A DNA stretch of 48,975 nucleotides from positions 1-48,975 of the forward strand of contig CALWHM010000013.1 in NCBI GenBank assembly GCA_944380395.1, in the 5' to 3' direction. The notes under the pieces are model-generated. The model was not told the origin of the DNA. It searched no databases and saw only the letters and a list, made by a program, of their open reading frames with translations. The position numbers and the translations under genes are program-made. The DNA is from an uncultured Clostridia bacterium. GTDB lineage: Bacteria; Bacillota; Clostridia; Christensenellales; UBA3700. Shown here in pieces: positions 5,698 to 33,335 of this stretch (its first letter is position 1; each line of letters starts with the position of its first letter).

Positions 5698-6525
5698 TCA
5701 CAAATTTTTAATTCCAAAACCGAGTCCGAATTTTCCGCCCTGCTTATAATATTCCAAGGCGGACTTTTGCAAAGAAGTCTTTGGAGTAAGTTTTTGCATA
5801 TCCGGCTTTCTCGACCCGAAAATATAGTACAGCGCGTCCCCGTCAAGGCGGCGGGAGCCAACTATATCAAACGCGGCGGAAAACTTGGTTATATTGGACT
5901 TTTCGCCCATAAATTTTTCATTGCCCGGATACAGCAGCCAGGAAAGGCACACGCATACGGAATATTCCGCAGCAAAATATTTTTTGAAGAACATAGGGGC
6001 GGCGTAAAACGAAGCGCGCCATGCGTTTTCGTCCAATTTACCCGTGCGCGGAATGTGCACGTTCAGGCATTGAGCGGGCAGTTTGAGCGTTTTTATCGCG
6101 CACTTCAAGCCCATATTGAGTATGACGGGACGCTTTATCGGCTGAAATTGCAGTCTGCCAAGTTTGAACAGCTCAAGTCGGACGTGATGGGCAAGCCAAG
6201 CGGTGTTTTCAAGTCCGCTCTCCGCCCTGCCCGTGCGGCGGCACTCGCCCGTCCACACGCCTATATCGCTCATAGTGTCGTAAAATATACTGTCGGAGAT
6301 GCCCTTCTCCGCGTATCGCGTATGCGCTATATCAGCCGCGCATAAAGTCACGGCAAGTCTTTCTCCCAAGTCGGGATAGGTGAGCTTTTTATCCGAAATG
6401 AACTTTTCCGCTTTTTTGCGCAGTTCCGCCTCCCGCGGAAAATATTTTTGCGCCGTGCGCGCGTCATCCGCGCTTATGCAGCCGCGTTCCAGAAAATCTT
6501 CCGTTATGCGCTCCAAGCCGTTCAT
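5698..6525 (-). CDS. Acyltransferase-domain protein of the NAT_N/GNAT_C type
   Basis: The 275-residue protein resembles the family annotated 'acyltransferase domain-containing protein', with a helical N-terminal domain and a GNAT-like C-terminal domain. The supporting features are a conserved LNVHIPRTGKLD segment near residue 158, a VCLSWLLYPG segment near 197 and a SNITKF segment near 214. The substrate is unknown. Its ATG overlaps the rsmI stop by 4 bases (ATGA), so it is translated in the same operon. This assignment rests on remembered motif patterns, not on a search. Confidence 0.6.
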   Translation of the reverse strand: MNGLERITEDFLERGCISADDARTAQKYFPREAELRKKAEKFISDKKLTYPDLGERLAVTLCAADIAHTRYAEKGISDSIFYDTMSDIGVWTGECRRTGRAESGLENTAWLAHHVRLELFKLGRLQFQPIKRPVILNMGLKCAIKTLKLPAQCLNVHIPRTGKLDENAWRASFYAAPMFFKKYFAAEYSVCVCLSWLLYPGNEKFMGEKSNITKFSAAFDIVGSRRLDGDALYYIFGSRKPDMQKLTPKTSLQKSALEYYKQGGKFGLGFGIKNL

Positions 6526-7343
6526 TGCCCTTCCTCCCTCAGCTTCAGCGCCATTTTATACACTTCGTCGCGCGGCAACCTGCAGCGCGCAGCCACCTGC
6601 TTTATCGCGCTCTTCCTGTCCTCTCCGCAATCAAGGAGCCGCTTTAACATATCCTCCGGATCGGGCGTTTCCTCCCCCTCTCCCGCATATACTATAACCA
6701 CGTATTCGCCGCGCGGTTCGGGCACGGATATCTCGCCCAGCACGCCCTCTTCCACTTCTTCGAACATCTTTGTAAGTTCGCGCGCCAGCGTCACTCTGCG
6801 CGCTCCGAGCAGAGAAAAGAGAAAGTCCAGCTGTTTTTGCAGATCGTGCGGGGAAACATACATCACAAGCGCGGAAGGCACGTTCTTGAACGCGGATATG
6901 AGCGCCGTCTTATCCTTTGACTTTTCGGGAAGAAAGCCCAAAAACGTAAAGGCACCCTCTACTCCCGCAAGCGCCGCGGCTGTTGTCAGTGCGGTGGGTC
7001 CGGGCGCACAGGTCACGGTCATTCCCGCGCTGCGCGCAAGACGTACGACCACCGCGCCGGGATCGGATATCCCCGGCATGCCCGCGTCCGTTATCAGCGC
7101 CACGTTTTTGCCCTCTTCAAGCAGTTGCAAAATGTATTCCGCGCCGCTTTTTTCATTGTGTTTATGATAGCTCACCAGCGGCTTTTTCACGCCCCTGCCC
7201 AGCAAAAACGGCAGCGAACGGCGCGTATCCTCGCAGGCTATGACGTCGGCGTTCATAAGCGCGTCCAGCGCGCGCTCCGTCATATCGCGGGCGTTGCCTA
7301 TCGGCGTGCCCACAAGTGTGAGAGTTCCGCTAGTTTTTTCCAT
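6522..7343 (-). CDS. rsmI: 16S rRNA (cytidine1402-2'-O)-methyltransferase RsmI
   Basis: RsmI methylates the ribose of C1402 in the ribosomal decoding centre. The 273-residue protein has the tetrapyrrole-methylase fold: GTLTLVGTPIGNARDMTERA at the N-terminus, CEDTRRS near residue 37, a DAGMPGISDPG loop near 86 and CAPGPTALTTA near 112. The C-terminal helical region ends in an Arg/Lys-rich segment, as usual. The gene overlaps the trmN6-like gene by 14 bases and the acyltransferase gene by 4, a tightly coupled operon. Length is normal. Confidence 0.95.
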   Translation of the reverse strand: MEKTSGTLTLVGTPIGNARDMTERALDALMNADVIACEDTRRSLPFLLGRGVKKPLVSYHKHNEKSGAEYILQLLEEGKNVALITDAGMPGISDPGAVVVRLARSAGMTVTCAPGPTALTTAAALAGVEGAFTFLGFLPEKSKDKTALISAFKNVPSALVMYVSPHDLQKQLDFLFSLLGARRVTLARELTKMFEEVEEGVLGEISVPEPRGEYVVIVYAGEGEETPDPEDMLKRLLDCGEDRKSAIKQVAARCRLPRDEVYKMALKLREEGQ

Positions 7344-8049
7344 ACATCTTCGCCGCCTCCGCGGTCATACTTCCGTCCTCGTTATACACGGTAAGGGAAT
7401 TCAATTTCATTCCCGGTCTGCCGCCCTTGACGGCGGTCACGATAAAGGTATCCGCCTGCCGCCCGGGCTTGGGATAGATCAGAGTTACGCATTTGGGCTG
7501 CAAGGCGTGATTGGAAAGCAAGGTGAGCGCCTCCGCCATTCTCTCCACTTTATGCACCATATAAAATCTGCCGCCTTCGCGCAGCAGGAGCGCGCCCTCC
7601 GCGGCAAGGTCTTGCAGCGTGCAGGTGCTTTCGTGGCGGGACAGAGCGCTGCGCACATCTCCGCGCACTTCGCCGCTGCCCGCTTTGAAGTAAGGCGGAT
7701 TGGAAACAATCGCGTCGAACACGGGCAGTTTTTCGTGACAGCCCTTAATATCCCCTTCGTAAACGATTATTTTATCGGAAAGTTTGTTTAATTCGGCGTT
7801 GCGGCGCGCAAGCTCCGCCGCCCACGGCTGAAATTCCACCGCCGTCACGCTTGCGCCGCGCTTGGCGGCGATGATAACGGAGATAATGCCGCTGCCCGCG
7901 CCCAAGTCCGCCACCTTATCCCCCGCGCCCGCCGCCACGGAGTTGGCAAGCAGGACCGCGTCGGACGTAAAACAGTAAGCGTCCGCGCGCTGAATGAGCA
8001 TCAGCCCGTTAAATTGCAGATCGTCCAGCCTTTCCCCCGCGTTGAGCAT
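7330..8049 (-). CDS. trmN6: tRNA1(Val) adenine-37 N6-methyltransferase family protein
   Basis: The 239-residue SAM-dependent methyltransferase starts with the ERLDDLQFNGLMLIQ element seen in this family. It has motif I (ADLGAGSGIIS, about residues 47-57), an acidic motif II (VEFQPWA, about 71-77) and the N6-adenine motif NPPY at 117-120. In many Firmicutes this gene lies immediately before rsmI, as here. A GGAG site precedes the ATG, and the upstream exonuclease ends only 3 bases before it. The exact RNA target is inferred from family membership. Confidence 0.88.
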   Translation of the reverse strand: MLNAGERLDDLQFNGLMLIQRADAYCFTSDAVLLANSVAAGAGDKVADLGAGSGIISVIIAAKRGASVTAVEFQPWAAELARRNAELNKLSDKIIVYEGDIKGCHEKLPVFDAIVSNPPYFKAGSGEVRGDVRSALSRHESTCTLQDLAAEGALLLREGGRFYMVHKVERMAEALTLLSNHALQPKCVTLIYPKPGRQADTFIVTAVKGGRPGMKLNSLTVYNEDGSMTAEAAKMYGKN

Positions 8050-8052
8050 ACT

Positions 8053-9222
8053 CTACTCCGAAGCGGGCGTTTCCGCAGACGGCGCGCCCGATTGAGATTT
8101 TTTGCGTCTGCGGCGCTTTTTCTTCTTTTTTTCGCCGCTCTCTTCTGCCGCGGGCTGTGCTGCGGGCTTTTTCCCCGTCCTGTCCCCTATCGTGAATTTG
8201 AGCGGTTTACCGTATGCCACCGCGGGAAGGGATACCATTTTATCCAAGGAAAAATTAGCCGCCTCCGGCATATCCTCTTCCGTGATATGTAACATCTGCC
8301 TGAACTGCTCCATTGTGACAAACTGCACGCGCTTGGAAAGCTTGGCGTCCGCGCGAATGGCTTTTTCTCGCGTGCATTGTTCATCGTCCGCACACACCAG
8401 CACATTGCAGCGCATGGCGTTGCGCGTGTATCTGCCGCCCAGCTCAAAACATTTTTTCGCAAAGTAGCCGCACATATCCGCATTGTCGCGTTCGAATTTT
8501 CTGGACATGCAAAAGCGTTTGCCTTCCAACTCCCCGCCCTGCGCGGAATGAAGCGTTTTTATGTACTCTTCCAAAAGCCTCTGCAAAAACCGCTTGCTGC
8601 GCGTGACGGATACGCCGTTCATCGTTATCTCGAAATTTTCTATCTCTCCCGTGCATTCGGGATTGTCCGAAAGTAGCTTATAAAGCGATACGTGTTTTTG
8701 CTGACATATAATGCGCACGAACTCCATCGTCGCCCACGCGTCGTCGTCGGAGCGGTGCAGGTGTTCGGGGTGGATATCGAACTCCTCGCAAATGCGCGCC
8801 AAGCCCACCTGCGAACCGCTGCCGTTTTGCACGAACTTTTTATAGATGAGCTGACTGTCCCCGAAGCGGTAATTTATGCAGGGGAATTTATAGCGCTTGC
8901 ATTGATAAGCCAAATGCTTTACGTCGTTGAGAATGCTGTGCCCCATAACTATCTGATCGGGCTCTTCCAGCATATACTTTATCTTTTCGTAGAACTTATC
9001 GAACTTGGGCTGAGCGCGGAAATACTCTTCCGGATAAGCAAGTTCTATCTCCGGTCTGCCCTCTTTTCTTCTCAAATAAAAACGCGAAGCGGGATTCATC
9101 ACTATGTCTTCTTTTTTAAGCACGTTGAACTGCTCGTCCGTGATTACATAGCCGAACGAACAAATCTTTCCCTCGCCGTTAAAACAATTGGAACATTCCA
9201 CATCGTAAAATAAATATCGCAT
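8053..9222 (-). CDS. DEDD-family 3'-5' exonuclease with BRCT-like domain and basic tail
   Basis: The first 175 residues form a DnaQ-like exonuclease: D7 and E9 in FYDVEC, D100 in GHSILNDV, and H156 with the Asp cluster at 159-161. Residues about 232-312 read as a BRCT domain (GKRFCMSR, then a GGRYTRNAMRCNVLV core and a VTMEQF end). The tail from about 350 is Lys/Arg-rich with seven or more consecutive basic residues near 365-375. The sequence suggests DNA repair or processing of nicked DNA. It is first in the exonuclease-trmN6-rsmI-acyltransferase operon. The start is fixed because the catalytic Asp is residue 7. No Shine-Dalgarno precedes it and the promoter lies almost against the ATG. Confidence 0.85.
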   Translation of the reverse strand: MRYLFYDVECSNCFNGEGKICSFGYVITDEQFNVLKKEDIVMNPASRFYLRRKEGRPEIELAYPEEYFRAQPKFDKFYEKIKYMLEEPDQIVMGHSILNDVKHLAYQCKRYKFPCINYRFGDSQLIYKKFVQNGSGSQVGLARICEEFDIHPEHLHRSDDDAWATMEFVRIICQQKHVSLYKLLSDNPECTGEIENFEITMNGVSVTRSKRFLQRLLEEYIKTLHSAQGGELEGKRFCMSRKFERDNADMCGYFAKKCFELGGRYTRNAMRCNVLVCADDEQCTREKAIRADAKLSKRVQFVTMEQFRQMLHITEEDMPEAANFSLDKMVSLPAVAYGKPLKFTIGDRTGKKPAAQPAAEESGEKKKKKRRRRKKSQSGAPSAETPASE

Positions 9223-9231
9223 AACGGATAT

Positions 9232-9260
9232 ATTATAAACGCTTATACCTCAATTGTCAA
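9232..9260 (-). promoter_or_regulatory. Consensus sigma-A promoter giving a near-leaderless mRNA
   Basis: Leftward TTGACA (9260-9255) and TATAAT (9237-9232) are spaced by exactly 17 bases. The -10 box ends 9 bases before the ATG at 9222, so transcription should begin within about 3 bases of the start codon. Confidence 0.88.
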
Positions 9261-9295
9261 GCGTGAGCAGACGGCGCTTCCGCCGCAAACAAAAA

Positions 9296-9315
9296 GGAAG
9301 CGGCAAGCCGCCTCC
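9296..9315 (-). terminator. Terminator of the ABC transporter gene
   Basis: An 8-bp stem with one G-T pair on the leftward strand (GGAGGCGG, loop CTTG, CCGCTTCC) is followed by T5. It lies 22 bases beyond the stop and just before the next operon's promoter. Confidence 0.75.
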
Positions 9316-9337
9316 CGTTTTGTTTTGCAAGAATATC

Positions 9338-12300
9338 TCACAGCGCTCTTATGCTTTCCACGGGCACTTTTCTTGCCGCGAGGATCACGGGGAGCACCGT
9401 GCCTATAAAGGCTACCACAAGCGTCATTCCGAATACGATAAGCGCGTTTACGATTCCGAAGTTGAGCAGCTCTATGGCTATTGCGGAGGTTACGGTCATC
9501 TTATTGATGATGACGCACGCCGCAAACGCACCGATGATCGCGAGTATGCCGCAGATAACGGCTATCATAATGCTTTCGCATATGAATATCTTGAACACGT
9601 CCGAGCCTCTGGCGCCGACCGCACGCAGGATACCTATTTCCTTGCGTTTATCGGAGATGGATACAGAGATGTAGTTGAACAGCAAAAGCGCGCTCAATCC
9701 CGCAAGCACTCCGCCGACTATGCCGAAGATAAGCGTAAGGCTTTCAAACATAGAAGCGCTACTGCTTGCTTCGTCGTAAACGCTGTTGCCCATCATCACA
9801 TAGCGCGCGCTTTCGTCCTCCGCGCCGTCGGGTGAGAGCATATACATAAGCGCGTCGTAAGAGGTGTTATCCAGATTGGTCAGGATCGCGTTGTAACGCG
9901 CGTTCTCGGGGCGGACGTAATCGGATATGGACTCCTGAATGCTTTGGTTGTAAGACGCGCCCTTCTCCCCCAGCATTTCCAGCGTTTCGGAATTGAGAAC
10001 ATATTGGTAACTCCAGCCGCCGGAAGCTTTGAAATATACGCCCGCTACATTGAGCACGTTGCTTTCGTTCAATTCAGAACCCAAATAGATTTTATCGTAA
10101 GCCTGCACGCGCTCACTAAAAGTCTCGCGATATTCCCTGTTGACATCTGAAAGCACAACGCTGTCCCATTTTTCGGATATCTGTTTAAGGACGTCTTTTA
10201 CATCGTTAAAAGTAAAGTCTTTGCCATAGCTGCCGTTGCAATAGTCACGCACACTCAAAAATGTTTCCCGATCTTCTTCCGACAAAGTGGTTTCATATGT
10301 TATCGTCTGCACATAGCCGTCGATTTCATACGTTTCCACCGCCGAATTCAACAAACTATCTATCATATTGCCAAACGTCGACGCGGGAATTATGACCTCT
10401 CCCTTCTTCAACCCGTCAAAGGATATCTCCTCCCCGTTAAAGGAGTACGCTTCTAAGTCGGAAGAAACATTTGACGAAAGCAAAACTTCCATTGAGGTAT
10501 TTGTGTAATTCATCGACGTGACAGCGTGGGAATATGTCATATCCACATATATAATGTTGCTGTTGCCGTATCCGTCGTAGTCGAGCATATCAATGTGCGC
10601 GTCTATGAACGCGGGCGCAACATAGAACAGACAATGGAAGGACGCCGACATTTCCGCTTGAAGTTTATATGAGTTTTGGTTGTAATTGTTACCGCCTATT
10701 CCGCCTTCCTGTCTGAGGCTGTCGAATTTCTGCGGAACTTCACCAACGTCGTATACGGCGGTTATGGTCAGAAATTCACCATCGGAGTCTCCGTTATAAA
10801 TTTTCAATTGTGCCCCTAGGATATCCTCATCTACGCCCTGCATATTTTCCTTCGGCTCAAATCCGACGGTTTCGTTGCCGTTATTGTCGTTATCGGGGCG
10901 AATGCCTCCGGCGGATACGATAAGTTCGTAAGTATATTTTGATATCGCCACTTCATCTGCGGCAACGGGCGCACGGCCGCATAAAATATACCCGTCCCCG
11001 AAGTTGCGGCGCATAAATTCCTCGCTCGCGTCCGTAAATCCTATAGGTATGGCTGAATAATACGGGTCGTTGCTTGAGTTGACATTACCGAACATTATCC
11101 TCGATTTACTGATACTGCCCAAAACTCCCGCATAATCTATGCCGTAGCCGCTGTTATTGTACTTGGCGATATCTTCCGACGTGAAAGTCCCGGATATCTG
11201 CGTTTCCCACTCGCTTACAGATTCCGTCTTTTCTCCTCCGGAATAATCTATATTAGTGTTTTGTATCTTTCCGTCATATTGCTTTTCTATCATAAAAGTG
11301 TGGTAATCCTGACCTTCCAGCGCGCTTGCCACGGAATAATTCATATCGTACATCATCATTGTGGAGAGCACGCCGAACAGCCCGAACGCCACCACGGTTA
11401 TGATTATGGTTAATATCAGGCGCACGGGCTTGGTTTTAAGTCCGCTTGCACCCATACGCAGCGCGTGCCCGAACGGCAGGCGCGATTTTATGAACTTGGT
11501 GGACTTGCCGTCATACTCCTTTAATTGTATGTCCTTGGACATGGTTTCGGAAAAATATTCGCTGCTACCCTCGTCCGTGATATTATTGGAGCGCTTGAAG
11601 TTTTCCACCTTCTTTTCATCGGCGGAGATTATCGTTTCGCTGCCTGCGGGCGCGTTTTCTATCACGGAGCGTATTTTTTCCAGCTCTTCGTCCGTGAGCC
11701 TTGCTCCGCCGCGCACGCGCAGGGTATCTTCCGCTATCAAGCTCACGTTTTCGCTCACCTGCTTGGCTTCGGCGTAATTTTTCGTCACGTCGGAGATTAT
11801 CTTTCCGTCCTTCATCTCCACTATTCTGTCGCCGTATTGCTCGGCAAAGTCCAAATCGTGAGAAACAATGATGACCAGCTTTTCCTTGGACAGCTTTTTC
11901 AGCGTGTCCATAATGTCCTTGCCCGTCTTGGAATCCAGCGCGCCCGTGGGTTCGTCCGCCATTATTATCTCCGGGTCTTTGATGAGTGCGCGCGCTATGG
12001 CAACCCTCTGCTTTTGACCGCCGGAAAGCGTGTTGGGCTTGCGGTGACCGTAACCGCTCAGATCCACCTTTTCAAGCAGAGCTTCCACCGCCGCTTTGTC
12101 GTTCTTTTTGCCCTGCAATTGCAGCGCAAGCGCGATGTTTTGCTCCACGTTGAATTCGCTTAAAATGTTGTACTCCTGAAAGATAAAACCGATGAACGTG
12201 TTGCGGTAGCTGTCAAAGTCGGCAGCCGTAAAGTCCTTACTGCTTTTACCCTTCACTATTATTTCACCGCTGTCCGGACGATCGAGTCCGCCGGTGACGT

Positions 12301-12448
12301 TGAGCAGCGTGGACTTACCCGAACCGCTCTTACCCAAAATGAACACCATTCCGCGTTCGGGGAAATCTATGCTTACCCCGTCCAGCGCCTTGGTGACCAC
12401 TCCGCCTTTTGCCTTGTAAGATTTTGTCAGATCTCTTACGGATAACAT
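9338..12448 (-). CDS. ABC transporter with fused ATPase and FtsX/MacB-type permease
   Basis: The 1036-residue protein begins with a MacB/LolD-like ATPase: Walker A GKSGSGKS (39-46), signature LSGGQ (141-145), Walker B IIMADE (161-166) and switch H197. A cytoplasmic linker follows, then a first membrane segment near residue 337, a large extracytoplasmic region of about 500 residues rich in Asn, Ser and Tyr, and three C-terminal membrane segments in FtsX order. Such fused proteins act in antimicrobial-peptide resistance, lipoprotein handling or peptide export; the substrate is not evident. An AAGGAG site lies 10 bases upstream of the ATG. No two-component genes adjoin it. Confidence 0.9.
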   Translation of the reverse strand: MLSVRDLTKSYKAKGGVVTKALDGVSIDFPERGMVFILGKSGSGKSTLLNVTGGLDRPDSGEIIVKGKSSKDFTAADFDSYRNTFIGFIFQEYNILSEFNVEQNIALALQLQGKKNDKAAVEALLEKVDLSGYGHRKPNTLSGGQKQRVAIARALIKDPEIIMADEPTGALDSKTGKDIMDTLKKLSKEKLVIIVSHDLDFAEQYGDRIVEMKDGKIISDVTKNYAEAKQVSENVSLIAEDTLRVRGGARLTDEELEKIRSVIENAPAGSETIISADEKKVENFKRSNNITDEGSSEYFSETMSKDIQLKEYDGKSTKFIKSRLPFGHALRMGASGLKTKPVRLILTIIITVVAFGLFGVLSTMMMYDMNYSVASALEGQDYHTFMIEKQYDGKIQNTNIDYSGGEKTESVSEWETQISGTFTSEDIAKYNNSGYGIDYAGVLGSISKSRIMFGNVNSSNDPYYSAIPIGFTDASEEFMRRNFGDGYILCGRAPVAADEVAISKYTYELIVSAGGIRPDNDNNGNETVGFEPKENMQGVDEDILGAQLKIYNGDSDGEFLTITAVYDVGEVPQKFDSLRQEGGIGGNNYNQNSYKLQAEMSASFHCLFYVAPAFIDAHIDMLDYDGYGNSNIIYVDMTYSHAVTSMNYTNTSMEVLLSSNVSSDLEAYSFNGEEISFDGLKKGEVIIPASTFGNMIDSLLNSAVETYEIDGYVQTITYETTLSEEDRETFLSVRDYCNGSYGKDFTFNDVKDVLKQISEKWDSVVLSDVNREYRETFSERVQAYDKIYLGSELNESNVLNVAGVYFKASGGWSYQYVLNSETLEMLGEKGASYNQSIQESISDYVRPENARYNAILTNLDNTSYDALMYMLSPDGAEDESARYVMMGNSVYDEASSSASMFESLTLIFGIVGGVLAGLSALLLFNYISVSISDKRKEIGILRAVGARGSDVFKIFICESIMIAVICGILAIIGAFAACVIINKMTVTSAIAIELLNFGIVNALIVFGMTLVVAFIGTVLPVILAARKVPVESIRAL

Positions 12449-19868: not shown

Positions 19869-22115
19869 TTACCGCTCTTCTTCCTGCGCAAACAGCTTGA
19901 CCGCAAGCACGGTTGCGTCGTCCTTCAAACCGTTGTCCCGCGCCACGGCAAGCAGCATATCCGCCACGCGCTGAGGGTTTTCCGCCTGCAATTTGGTCAG
20001 CGCGTATTCCGCGCCGTGAACGGTGAGCGCGTCCGTTATCCCGTCGCTGACCATGACCAGCACGTCCCCGTCTTTGAGCGTCACCTGCCTGTAAACGGGC
20101 GTTATCTCATCCAATATACCCGCAGGCAGCGCTCCGCCCTCCACCGTTTTCACGGCGCCGCCGCTCAAAATAAAACTCTCCACCCCGCCCAGCTTGATAA
20201 ACTCCGCCGCTCCCGCGTTCAAATCGAGCACGCAGGCGTCCAGCGCGCAAAATTTTTCTCCGCCGCGCAAGGTGAGAAATCTGTTGATAAGCGCGGGTAT
20301 CGCACCCTTTTCAAAGCCGCACTTGCAATAGTTTTCCAACATTGTCAGGCAAGCCGCGCTCTCGGCTGCCGCCGCGCTGCCGCTGCCCATTCCGTCGCAC
20401 AGACCGATAAGCGCCCTGCCGCCGTCCAAAGCCGCGGCGGAATACATATCCCCCGGTCTGTCGCTCCCCTCCTTGACCGCGCCCGCCGCTCCGAACGCGG
20501 CGGCGAACTTTTCACGCGGCGCATACGTGAGAGTGACCGCGCCGAGTTCGGGCGTGCACCTTATCCTTTTGACCGCGCCCGTCAGGCGCGACACGACTTT
20601 TTGCACAACGCTTTTTTCTTCATCGCCCTTGCGCAGCCGCAATATCACGCGCCTTTCCTCCCCTTCTCCCAGCACCGCCGCGCCCAGACATACCACGTTC
20701 TCATATCCCAGCGCGTCTATGATAGCGGAAGCCGTTTCCTCATCGTTCCCGCCCGATTTGCCCACTTTGGAAGCAAGCCTGCCCAGCACCATGCCCGTGG
20801 ACCTCATCTGCTCTGCCGCCGCGGCGCCGCTTTGCAGGGCAAAGGCGCGTTTTGTTCGCATATTCAGCGCTTTTTGCGCGGACGCCGCGCACGCGTTCAT
20901 CACCTTATCCAACCTGCCGCACTTGCTTATCACAAACACGGGAAAGTCGTCCGCGGCGATCTCCTTTCCGTTCATTTTCTTTTCCACCGCCTTTTTGAAC
21001 ATATCCCTTCCCGCTATATCCGGGCACTTGTCGCGCTCCGCACATTGAGCGCACACAGACGAAACCACGTCCGCGCAAGCCGCTTCCGTTTCGTCCAAAC
21101 CCCCTCCGCCGTCCTCGAACTCCGCCGCCATGCCCATCATCAGCCGCGCGCAGCCGCCCAGCTTTTCAAACAGCTCCTCCCGCTCCTTTTCCACGGCATA
21201 TTTGAGCGCATCCGATTTTTCGGGAAAGAGCGCTTTCGCCAGCCTTTTCTGCGCCTTGTCCGGTATAAACAGCACCGCAAGCATACCCACCGCGGCAAGA
21301 CAGATGTTCAAAGTGTCAAACGGTTCAAACGCGCCCGTCACAAAACCGCACAGCAGATACACCCCTTCGCCCGCAAGCGCGGCGGGGAGTTTCCCCTGTC
21401 CGCGAAAACATTTTGCCGCCGCCCACACCGCCAAAGCCGCGCCGACCGCCGCCATATCGCGCATACATATGCCCGCGCCCAGCGAAAAAGCCGCGCATAT
21501 CCCCGCCCCGGGCAGAACGGGAAAGGCGGACGAGAGCAGGCAAAGCGCGCTTATCACGGTAAAATAAGGTCTGTATCCCCACAACTCCAGCGAATGCACG
21601 CCCATACCGAAGGCGGCGAGTATAAGACATAAAGAGAGCAGTTCGTCATATGAAAAGCGAACGTTTTTGCGCACCGTCACGGCAAAACAACCGATACAGC
21701 AGGCGGCGCAGAATGCCGTGTTTATCACCAGCGACGTTACGCCCTGCACCACCACTCCCTTAACGAACAGCGCGGTGAAAAAGCGGGGAAGCATACTCAA
21801 AAACGCCGCGCCGACCGCGGCGGGCGCCTTTAACTTTAAGTCGAATTTGCGGCAAATGAGTTTTACCGCGCCGAACACGGCAAGCGCGCTTGCCCCGTCT
21901 ATCAGAGAAAGCAGATCTCCGCAGGCGAGCGCGTTTCCGCCGAAGAACGCAAAAGAGAGCGCAAAGTAGTTTTTGCCGCAATATATGAGCGCGCAATAAA
22001 GACCTATGCCCAAGGGGACCATATCGGGTGCTGCCGCAGCCCTGCCGAGTATGTAAAACAAAACCAATGCCAGCAGCAGTTTGCCGACGGAATATCTGAA
22101 TTTTCCTGCTTTCAT
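19869..22115 (-). CDS. spoIIE: Stage II sporulation protein E (membrane PP2C phosphatase)
   Basis: SpoIIE dephosphorylates SpoIIAA to activate sigma-F in the forespore. From the ATG at 22115 the protein has 748 residues: about ten membrane segments in the first 300, a cytoplasmic linker with a Cys-rich patch (SSVCAQCAERDKCPD), and a C-terminal PP2C-type phosphatase with LIGLCDGMGSG and VSDGITDAL metal-binding motifs. A frame extension of 34 codons exists upstream but runs into the terminator hairpin of the P-type ATPase gene, so I reject it. No Shine-Dalgarno precedes the ATG and a TATAAT ends 6 bases before it. Confidence 0.92.
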   Translation of the reverse strand: MKAGKFRYSVGKLLLALVLFYILGRAAAAPDMVPLGIGLYCALIYCGKNYFALSFAFFGGNALACGDLLSLIDGASALAVFGAVKLICRKFDLKLKAPAAVGAAFLSMLPRFFTALFVKGVVVQGVTSLVINTAFCAACCIGCFAVTVRKNVRFSYDELLSLCLILAAFGMGVHSLELWGYRPYFTVISALCLLSSAFPVLPGAGICAAFSLGAGICMRDMAAVGAALAVWAAAKCFRGQGKLPAALAGEGVYLLCGFVTGAFEPFDTLNICLAAVGMLAVLFIPDKAQKRLAKALFPEKSDALKYAVEKEREELFEKLGGCARLMMGMAAEFEDGGGGLDETEAACADVVSSVCAQCAERDKCPDIAGRDMFKKAVEKKMNGKEIAADDFPVFVISKCGRLDKVMNACAASAQKALNMRTKRAFALQSGAAAAEQMRSTGMVLGRLASKVGKSGGNDEETASAIIDALGYENVVCLGAAVLGEGEERRVILRLRKGDEEKSVVQKVVSRLTGAVKRIRCTPELGAVTLTYAPREKFAAAFGAAGAVKEGSDRPGDMYSAAALDGGRALIGLCDGMGSGSAAAAESAACLTMLENYCKCGFEKGAIPALINRFLTLRGGEKFCALDACVLDLNAGAAEFIKLGGVESFILSGGAVKTVEGGALPAGILDEITPVYRQVTLKDGDVLVMVSDGITDALTVHGAEYALTKLQAENPQRVADMLLAVARDNGLKDDATVLAVKLFAQEEER

Positions 22116-22121
22116 GCCGCC

Positions 22122-22127
22122 ATTATA
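22122..22127 (-). promoter_or_regulatory. Candidate -10 element immediately upstream of spoIIE
   Basis: TATAAT on the leftward strand ends 6 bases before the ATG. No consensus -35 is at 17 bases, which could fit an activator-dependent promoter such as a Spo0A-controlled one, but no perfect 0A box is visible. Confidence 0.45.
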
Positions 22128-24988: not shown

Positions 24989-25606
24989 TTATTCCTGAAT
25001 GTTATCTTTTGCAAGCGAAAATTCGCATCCGCAATAATTCTGCCTGTACAGAGAATATCTGCGGCTTAACAAAATCGAATGCTTGTATCCTTCTTTTTTC
25101 TTGAAGTCGGACGGCAGAAATTCCACGCCCTCGCGCGCTTGGATTTCCCGCCCTATTTCATTGATAAGCGGCGCGTTTTTATGCGGACTCACCGTCAGCG
25201 TGGTGGCGAACATATCGCACCCCAATGTCTTAGCCGCCCGCGCGGCGGCGGTGAGGCGCAGTCTGAAACACTCCGTGCAGCGCGCTCCGCCCTCCTTTTC
25301 CCCTTCCAAGCCCTTTACGGCGGCAAGGAAAAGCGTGTGGTCGTAATCGCAGTCGCACACCTTTACCTGCGGATACGCCTCTTTTATAAAACGCATCTGT
25401 TCGCTTTTGCGCTTTTCGTACTCTTCAACGGGAAATATGTTGGGATTGAAATATAAAACCGTGACTTTCGCAAGCGGTGCAAGCACGCTCAAACAATGCG
25501 AAGAACACGGCGCGCAGCAACTGTGCAGCAGCAACGACGGCGGAGTTTGCGCCGCGCTCAGCCTTTCGAGCATAAGTTTATTGTAGTCCGGCTTCAAATT
25601 TTGCAA
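24989..25606 (-). CDS. queH: Epoxyqueuosine reductase QueH
   Basis: QueH reduces epoxyqueuosine to queuosine in tRNA wobble positions. The 205-residue protein (formerly DUF208) has the metal and cluster cysteines in HSCCAPCSSHC near residue 28, RCTECFRLRL near 109 and YCGCEFS near the C-terminus, plus YFNPNIFPVEEYEKRK. It replaces the unrelated QueG in many Firmicutes. The gene overlaps the end of darA by 13 bases and is cotranscribed with it. Confidence 0.93.
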   Translation of the reverse strand: MQNLKPDYNKLMLERLSAAQTPPSLLLHSCCAPCSSHCLSVLAPLAKVTVLYFNPNIFPVEEYEKRKSEQMRFIKEAYPQVKVCDCDYDHTLFLAAVKGLEGEKEGGARCTECFRLRLTAAARAAKTLGCDMFATTLTVSPHKNAPLINEIGREIQAREGVEFLPSDFKKKEGYKHSILLSRRYSLYRQNYCGCEFSLAKDNIQE

Positions 25607-26497: not shown

Positions 26498-26526
26498 TTG
26501 CTTATGGCGCGCGCTTGATGTATTAT
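26498..26526 (+). promoter_or_regulatory. Candidate promoter giving a leaderless thiN mRNA
   Basis: TTGCTT (26498-26503) and TATTAT (26521-26526) are spaced by 17 bases. The -10 box ends 6 bases before the ATG at 26533. Confidence 0.55.
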
Positions 26527-30252: not shown

Positions 30253-30804
30253 TTACAATTTCATTATACCGCGCAGTCTTTCCAAACAGCCGTTGCAAAT
30301 AAGGCAGTCGTTTGCGGCGCGGTGCGCGCCCTCCACGGATATGCCGAAGTACTCCGCCACGGTAGTCTGCTTGTGATCGGGAAGTTGCGGAAGATACCTG
30401 CGCGCATAGCGCAGCACATCCACGTAATCGTTGGAAAGCGGCTTTCCCAAGTGCGCCATCAAGTTATCGTACAAAAAATTTATATCGAAATTCACGTTAT
30501 ATCCCACTATAACGTCGCCGCCAAGGAAGTCTGAAAAAGTACTCAGCGCCCACTCTATGTCCGCTCCTGCGTCAGCCATCTGCTGCGTTATCCCCGTAAG
30601 ATTTGTTATAAACCACGATACGCGTCCCTTGGGCTTGACAAGGGTGGAAAACTTGTCCACCTCCGCACCGGAGCGGTATTTTATTGCGGATATTTCAATT
30701 ATTTCGCTTACGGCAGATGAAAGACCCGTGGTTTCTATATCCACCACGGTGTAGTCGTTCGGAATATATTCCAGATGTTTTCCCTTGTCGCTTCTTATGT
30801 TCAT
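30253..30804 (-). CDS. DnaQ-like 3'-5' exonuclease
   Basis: The 183-residue protein is a stand-alone DEDDh exonuclease related to DNA polymerase III epsilon: D22 and E24 in VVDIETTGL, D107 in YNVNFDINFLYD, and the final HRAANDCLIC motif with His and Asp. It could proofread, trim RNA or act in repair. The N-terminus (MNIRSDKGKHLEYIPNDYTV) is short, so the chosen ATG is well supported. No Shine-Dalgarno is visible and TATAAT ends 6 bases upstream of the ATG. Confidence 0.88.
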   Translation of the reverse strand: MNIRSDKGKHLEYIPNDYTVVDIETTGLSSAVSEIIEISAIKYRSGAEVDKFSTLVKPKGRVSWFITNLTGITQQMADAGADIEWALSTFSDFLGGDVIVGYNVNFDINFLYDNLMAHLGKPLSNDYVDVLRYARRYLPQLPDHKQTTVAEYFGISVEGAHRAANDCLICNGCLERLRGIMKL

Positions 30805-30810
30805 AGCTAT

Positions 30811-30819
30811 ATTATAGCA
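30811..30819 (-). promoter_or_regulatory. Extended -10 promoter giving a leaderless exonuclease mRNA
   Basis: Leftward TGCTATAAT is an extended -10 element ending 6 bases before the ATG at 30804. No good -35 is required for this class. Confidence 0.6.
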
Positions 30820-33306: not shown

Positions 33307-33335
33307 TTGACTTTTTCCGCCGTCGATACTATTAT
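33307..33335 (+). promoter_or_regulatory. Promoter giving a near-leaderless MATE mRNA
   Basis: TTGACT (33307-33312) and TATTAT (33330-33335) are spaced by 17 bases. The -10 box ends 10 bases before the ATG at 33346, leaving a leader of about 3 bases. Confidence 0.7.

Follow-up and report, generated by a model that had tools for sequence, protein, structure and literature searches.

Among 209 Firmicutes genomes, 56 are predicted to carry leaderless genes, at an average of 4.2% (2.4-16.6) and mostly in Lactobacillales and Mycoplasma (PMC3160421), and leaderless transcription has been predicted for 21.6% of the bacterial species within a 4,769-member set (PMC9581028). The word 'Clostridi' is absent from the main text of PMC3160421. 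As far as the accessible parts of the respective papers report, three solventogenic clostridia have approximately 2-3% leaderless transcripts (PMC9045289), the figure for C. phytofermentans is 4%, generally together with a ribosome-binding site and another start (PMC5171806), and C. difficile has 15 leaderless genes (PMC7438776). The present analysis concerns a 48,975-nucleotide stretch of DNA from an uncultured Clostridia bacterium (contig CALWHM010000013.1, positions 1 to 48,975; hereafter the window) and, within it, an exonuclease gene whose promoter lies directly against its start codon. We consider it very probable that a housekeeping sigma-factor promoter is placed here, and at a set of other genes, so that the transcription start (+1) falls on the start codon or a few bases from it. 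An initial annotation of the window had called this pattern uncommon in Firmicutes, a description that suits the few leaderless genes of start-mapped Clostridia (PMC9045289, PMC5171806, PMC7438776) and is too sweeping for the 56 Firmicutes genomes with predicted cases (PMC3160421, in its available part).

The promoter region of the exonuclease contains the following features.

9255..9260, minus strand: -35 hexamer TTGACA, from the letters and a promoter scan; TTGACA in six of seven genomes of the genus and TTGTAA in the seventh.
9232..9237, minus strand: -10 hexamer TATAAT, from the letters and a promoter scan, 17 bases after the -35; TATAAT in all seven genus genomes.
9223..9225, minus strand: predicted 3-nucleotide leader GTT, with +1 expected at G 9225 (base 7 past the -10) from general sigma-A start rules.
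9295..9316, minus strand: stem of a terminator hairpin that separates the ABC transporter gene upstream from the exonuclease promoter; the only terminator-like hairpin within 9100-9420 (shuffle mean 0.5).

Nine bases, ATATCCGTT, separate the -10 from the ATG (9222..9220, minus strand). The promoter is the single promoter-like site within 9100-9420, matching at 12 of 12 positions against a shuffle mean of 0.4, and both the coordinates and the scan bear out the initial annotation, which had placed TTGACA-N17-TATAAT nine bases before this ATG. Its statement that the gene lacks a Shine-Dalgarno (SD) sequence is likewise correct, as the upstream sequence holds no SD-like run of four or more bases. 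The start codon itself is fixed, as had also been claimed from an Asp at residue 7: a D-x-E motif, which we take to be the exonuclease catalytic motif, stands at residue 7, the N-terminus aligns with those of relatives, and inspection by eye found no ATG, GTG or TTG among the in-frame codons upstream to a stop. On the far side of the promoter, the gene at 9338-12448 (an ABC transporter with an FtsX domain) seems to end in a terminator because of the hairpin stem at 9316..9295. The folding energy of 9272-9330 is -31.1 kcal/mol (z -3.84), and 34 bases separate the stem from the exonuclease -35 on the same strand.

Sigma-A type polymerase starts about 7 bases past the -10. From this we infer that the exonuclease message would begin 5'-GUU-AUG, and that genes with TATAAT-N6-ATG, the commoner type, would yield a message beginning 5'-AUG, with +1 on the A of the ATG. 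The SD-less first gene would then be translated by the leaderless route, in which 70S or fMet-tRNA-loaded ribosomes recognise a 5'-terminal AUG, and the downstream genes of the exonuclease operon from ordinary SD sites. The exonuclease shares with leaderless genes the features that we tested, namely a -10 placed near the start codon, the absence of an SD and the first position in its unit. Strict leaderlessness, taken as six bases between -10 and ATG, does not describe it; the TATAAT ends nine bases before the ATG in five of the seven genus genomes and ten bases before it in two. A G read by eye at 7-8 bases past the -10 in all seven would give leaders of GTT, GAT or GTTT. Hence the annotated leaderless exonuclease stands insofar as its promoter abuts the ATG, and needs amending in that the gene is off the modal spacing of 6 (a leader of 0 nucleotides). 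We would call it near-leaderless, with a predicted leader of 3 nucleotides in the window and 3-4 across the genus.

Homologues of the exonuclease were sought in 60 genomes, the window's own included, with a match in 35, and 30 loci were compared (the window's own, six of the same genus and 23 outside it). Within the genus the N17 spacing is kept in all seven loci, and mean pairwise identity is 1.00 for the -10 and 0.90 for the -35, against 0.38 for the spacer and 0.35 for the 31 bases upstream. The most distant genus genome (locus L007, G006:C10) carries two overlapping TATAAT hexamers, TATAATATAAT, ending 10 and 5 bases before the exonuclease ATG. An SD of four or more bases is absent in five of the seven loci. 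Outside the genus, no -10, whether exact or matching at five of six positions, stands 5-10 nucleotides before the exonuclease ATG at any of the 23 loci. With L026 left out, 22 of them have a usable start, and an SD of four or more is present in 20 of these. A methyltransferase lies beside the exonuclease in 7/7 genus loci and 0/23 others, with flanks examined up to 1.5 kb. Because both are kept throughout the genus loci and missing outside, the promoter arrangement and the operon look like features of the genus. In locus L002 we also observed an inverted repeat, tttttgcgccgac ... gtcggcgcaaaaat, perhaps a terminator, ending just before the exonuclease -35; L004 has a similar one with one base different in the left arm.

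The operon downstream of this promoter comprises four genes.

8053..9222, minus strand: DEDDh-type exonuclease, 389 amino acids, first gene (Pfam RNase_T PF00929, 3.6e-08).
7330..8049, minus strand: methyltransferase of the MTS family, second gene (Pfam), with GGAG ahead of its ATG.
6522..7343, minus strand: TP_methylase, third gene (Pfam), presumably RsmI-like, with GGAGG 12 bases ahead of the listed ATG.
5698..6525, minus strand: GNAT-like acyltransferase, fourth gene (Pfam), with GGAGG ahead of its ATG.

Only the first gene lacks an SD; the GGAG or GGAGG runs of the other three were read from the sequence. This is what would be expected if the message begins at the exonuclease ATG. The exonuclease open frame of locus L003 (G002:C4 26984-28135) is listed at 733 amino acids, against 389 in the window, and may run on at one end.

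The initial annotation had proposed comparing the number of -10 elements near annotated starts with shuffled upstream regions, and on the part of the genome that we covered such a count gave a clear excess. The window's genome (G000; 759 kb, window included, no N) has 555 called genes, of which 543 were used with the first ATG taken, and the null model consisted of 200 dinucleotide shuffles. Exact TATAAT ends 5-10 nucleotides before the ATG in 24 genes against a shuffle mean of 3.7 (maximum 10), and at spacing 6 alone in 11 against 0.61 (maximum 4); five-of-six matches at 5-10 nucleotides number 57 against 20.6 (maximum 36). A sister species of the same genus (G002; 600 kb, 420 genes) gave 19 exact matches against 2.7 (maximum 8) and 32 five-of-six matches against 15.3 (maximum 25). 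In G000 the excess amounts to 3.7-6.7% of genes and in G002 to 3.9-4.0%, so that in these two genomes, the ones analysed in depth, roughly 4-7% of genes look leaderless by this measure. An SD of four or more occurs in 1/24 (G000) and 1/19 (G002) of the genes with exact TATAAT at 5-10 nucleotides, compared with 43/54 and 35/37 when the TATAAT sits 15-44 nucleotides upstream. A functional theme for the class was discarded: the strongest G000 candidates, 26 in number, seem to be a mixture of housekeeping genes, with names taken from reading protein letters except for Pfam-scanned window genes.

These counts bear on the possibility that the -10 near the ATG is a chance product of AT-rich sequence, with the true promoter further upstream and an ordinary leader. 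Chance hexamers resembling TATAAT do arise in AT-rich upstream DNA and would account for about a third of the five-of-six matches in G000 (20.6 of 57). At the exonuclease, however, the terminator 34 bases before the -35 leaves little room for an upstream promoter, the hexamers and their spacing are conserved and the intervening spacer is not, and there is no SD for an ordinary leader to present. We regard a chance -10 as very unlikely. Alternatively, the promoters might abut the ATG while the main product arises by another route, for example from an additional transcript that begins further upstream and carries a normal ribosome site, as reported for the potentially leaderless genes of C. phytofermentans (PMC5171806, as far as available). 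For the genes studied here we consider this highly improbable, since an SD of four or more is retained in so few of the G000 genes (1/24) and no further promoter-like site for the exonuclease exists within 9100-9420.

Promoters positioned at the start codon are further indicated by signs independent of the hexamer count. When a unit head is defined by a divergent neighbour or a gap of 30 or more, SD-less genes with a -10 are unit heads in 94% of 47 cases in G000 and 100% of 27 in G002. The corresponding shares are 51% (n = 348) and 52% (n = 297) for SD genes, and 61% (n = 137) and 67% (n = 92) for genes that have neither SD nor -10. A -35 of 5-6 matches at a spacing of 16-18 precedes 20 of the 76 pooled SD-less -10 genes (orthologs kept in), against approximately 1.5 in base-shuffled upstream regions. 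The base before the ATG is a pyrimidine in 34/38 N6 genes and in 376/653 SD genes, a bias expected if the A of the ATG is +1. Non-SD genes of some phyla show an AT-rich bias near -10 to -20 that has been discussed as a promoter or S1 signal (PMC5397173, in its available part), and the AT-rich element could in principle be a translation signal, an unstructured or S1-binding region, and not a promoter. The -35 hexamers at promoter spacing and the location of these genes at unit heads make that extremely improbable, and point to a promoter at the start codon. Conservation agrees with such a promoter. In ortholog pairs with G002 (at least 45% identity, with the alignment beginning in the first four residues; 21 pairs were dropped for lack of a start codon at the matching position), 17/19 retain a -10 at 5-10 nucleotides, and among the other 169 pairs two have the arrangement in G002 only.

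The distribution of the arrangement beyond the genus was measured as the count of TATAAT-N5-7-ATG relative to N15-17 in 248 genomes of the order and 108 other genomes of the phylum. The order was judged from two named relatives, Candidatus Caccalectryoclostridium, which NCBI places in Christensenellales, and Candidatus Alloclostridium, placed in Clostridia incertae sedis. The ratio is 1.64 in four genus genomes and 0.945 in the 108 other phylum genomes. Enriched families are f14 (1.53), f16 (1.49), f13 (1.38), f32 (1.36), f3 (1.33) and f1 (1.21, genus included), and the one-genome families f30 and f22 reach 1.62 and 1.55; the remaining families are lower, many near or below 1 (for example f4 at 0.89 and f23 and f31 at 0.98). 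At an uncorrected p<0.001, 19/248 genomes stand out in the order and 0/108 elsewhere in the phylum. Exact spacing counts in 76 genomes (the genus plus five families chosen because they are enriched) are 2929 for N6 against 1320 for N8 and 1235 for N9. Relative to the mean of N5 and N7, N6 stands at 2.09 in the four genus genomes and 0.74 in the 108 phylum genomes, and none of the 88 phylum genomes with at least 30 counts shows an N6 excess. Several related families of the order share the N6 signature. A codon-phase artefact behind spacing 6 was ruled out, phase 0 being the least frequent (mean 35.8 versus 44.2 and 40.8). Families f15 (three genomes) and f26 (one genome) display an opposite deficit, TATAAT-N5-7-ATG being rarer than N15-17 at ratios of 0.58 and 0.67.

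Besides the chance share of five-of-six matches noted above, several observations weigh against a start-codon promoter as the general explanation. The exonuclease, at spacing 9, lies off the mode, and spacing 9 is not enriched over spacing 8 across the 76 genomes (1235 vs 1320). An AGGT scores as an SD of four in L002 and L004, but it is located in the spacer, ahead of the -10. The contrast in SD frequency is partly mechanical, because a -10 at 5-10 nucleotides occupies the SD window. The arrangement is missing in 2/19 G002 orthologs and in 2/3 orthologs of a third genus genome (G003; a smaller sample, 3 dropped), and some conserved pairs carry little weight because they are nearly identical in sequence. 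At gene level no excess was seen in a 200-kb sample of G003 with 128 genes (2 exact matches against 2.0 expected, 4 five-of-six matches against 6.0), nor in small samples of G018 and G037; samples of other genera, at 122-139 genes each, are too small to judge singly. The whole-genome TATAAT-to-ATG counts of G003 do show an excess, however, with 54 for N6 versus 16 for N8 and 17 for N9. Among the listed cases, at least the rimM-like one seems to lie within the coding sequence upstream. We also considered a separate class with a fixed 3-nucleotide leader (spacing 9) as a general mode; it would take in 10 of the 43 exact matches from two genomes, but it was rejected on the same 76-genome counts.

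Four further genes of the window had been proposed to share the pattern, and all four hold as genes with -10-like elements and no SD.

22122..22127, minus strand: TATAAT-N6-ATG at spoIIE (19869-22115), no SD; TANNNT at spacing 6 in 6/7 genus genomes (by eye).
26521..26526, plus strand: TATTAT-N6-ATG (26533) at thiN (thiamine pyrophosphokinase), no SD; TTGCTT at 26498-26503.
30811..30816, minus strand: TATAAT-N6-ATG with an extended -10 (TGC) at the DnaQ-like exonuclease (30253-30804), no SD; retained in the sister species G002.
33330..33335, plus strand: TTGACT-N17-TATTAT-N10-ATG (33346) at a MATE transporter, no SD; TTGACT at 33307-33312.

Six of the seven genus genomes have TATNAT-N6-ATG at thiN, read by eye, and the seventh (G006) instead has AAGGAG before the ATG. 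The MATE arrangement is the same in G002, and G003 has no -10 at 5-10 nucleotides there. TACAAT-N6-ATG at a QueH-family gene (24989-25606) was dismissed as a chance match and false positive, as it is kept in neither of two genus orthologs.

A tentative and rather doubtful extension of these results is that a subset of families in this order of Clostridia acquired or enlarged a second channel for starting translation, with housekeeping genes switching from SD-led to leaderless initiation; the exonuclease may have switched at the root of the genus, on coming to head a new operon, and kept a short leader of the G-N-U type. Few leaderless genes are present in start-mapped Clostridia, yet a sharp TATAAT-N6-ATG signature occurs in several families of this order, whose members named here are gut metagenome genomes. 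The contrast within the order offers a way to study gains and losses of leaderless initiation. Since gene finders often favour SD sites, the signature is also relevant to how start codons are called in genomes from gut metagenomes. A literature search found no report of leaderless genes in this lineage; it mostly did not extend to subscription papers and is hence weak evidence of absence. The kind of gene is already known, and what appears to be new is a lineage with a sharp and conserved signature.

In the available part of PMC3160421, the TA-led genes of Actinobacteria and Deinococcus-Thermus resemble those described here: the -10 stands approximately 10 bp ahead of the start, an SD is absent, and SD genes occur alongside. 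They differ in their share of genes, which averages about 19% and 39% there against approximately 4-7% here, and the high-GC groups differ in their signal, TAnnnT in that account, whereas full TATAAT matches are enriched here. The TA-led genes of Lactobacillales and Mycoplasma, as covered by the same available text (PMC3160421), are similar in share, in their TATAAT-type signal and in belonging to SD-dominated Bacillota genomes, although the lineage here is one of Christensenellales-type Clostridia. The start-mapped Clostridia, namely the solventogenic species, C. phytofermentans and C. difficile (PMC9045289, PMC5171806, PMC7438776, in their accessible parts), likewise have starts a few bases from the ATG, which for our genes are predicted. 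Unlike C. phytofermentans, in which a ribosome-binding site and another start are generally kept, the genes examined here nearly always lack an SD and maintain a sharp spacing that is conserved between species.
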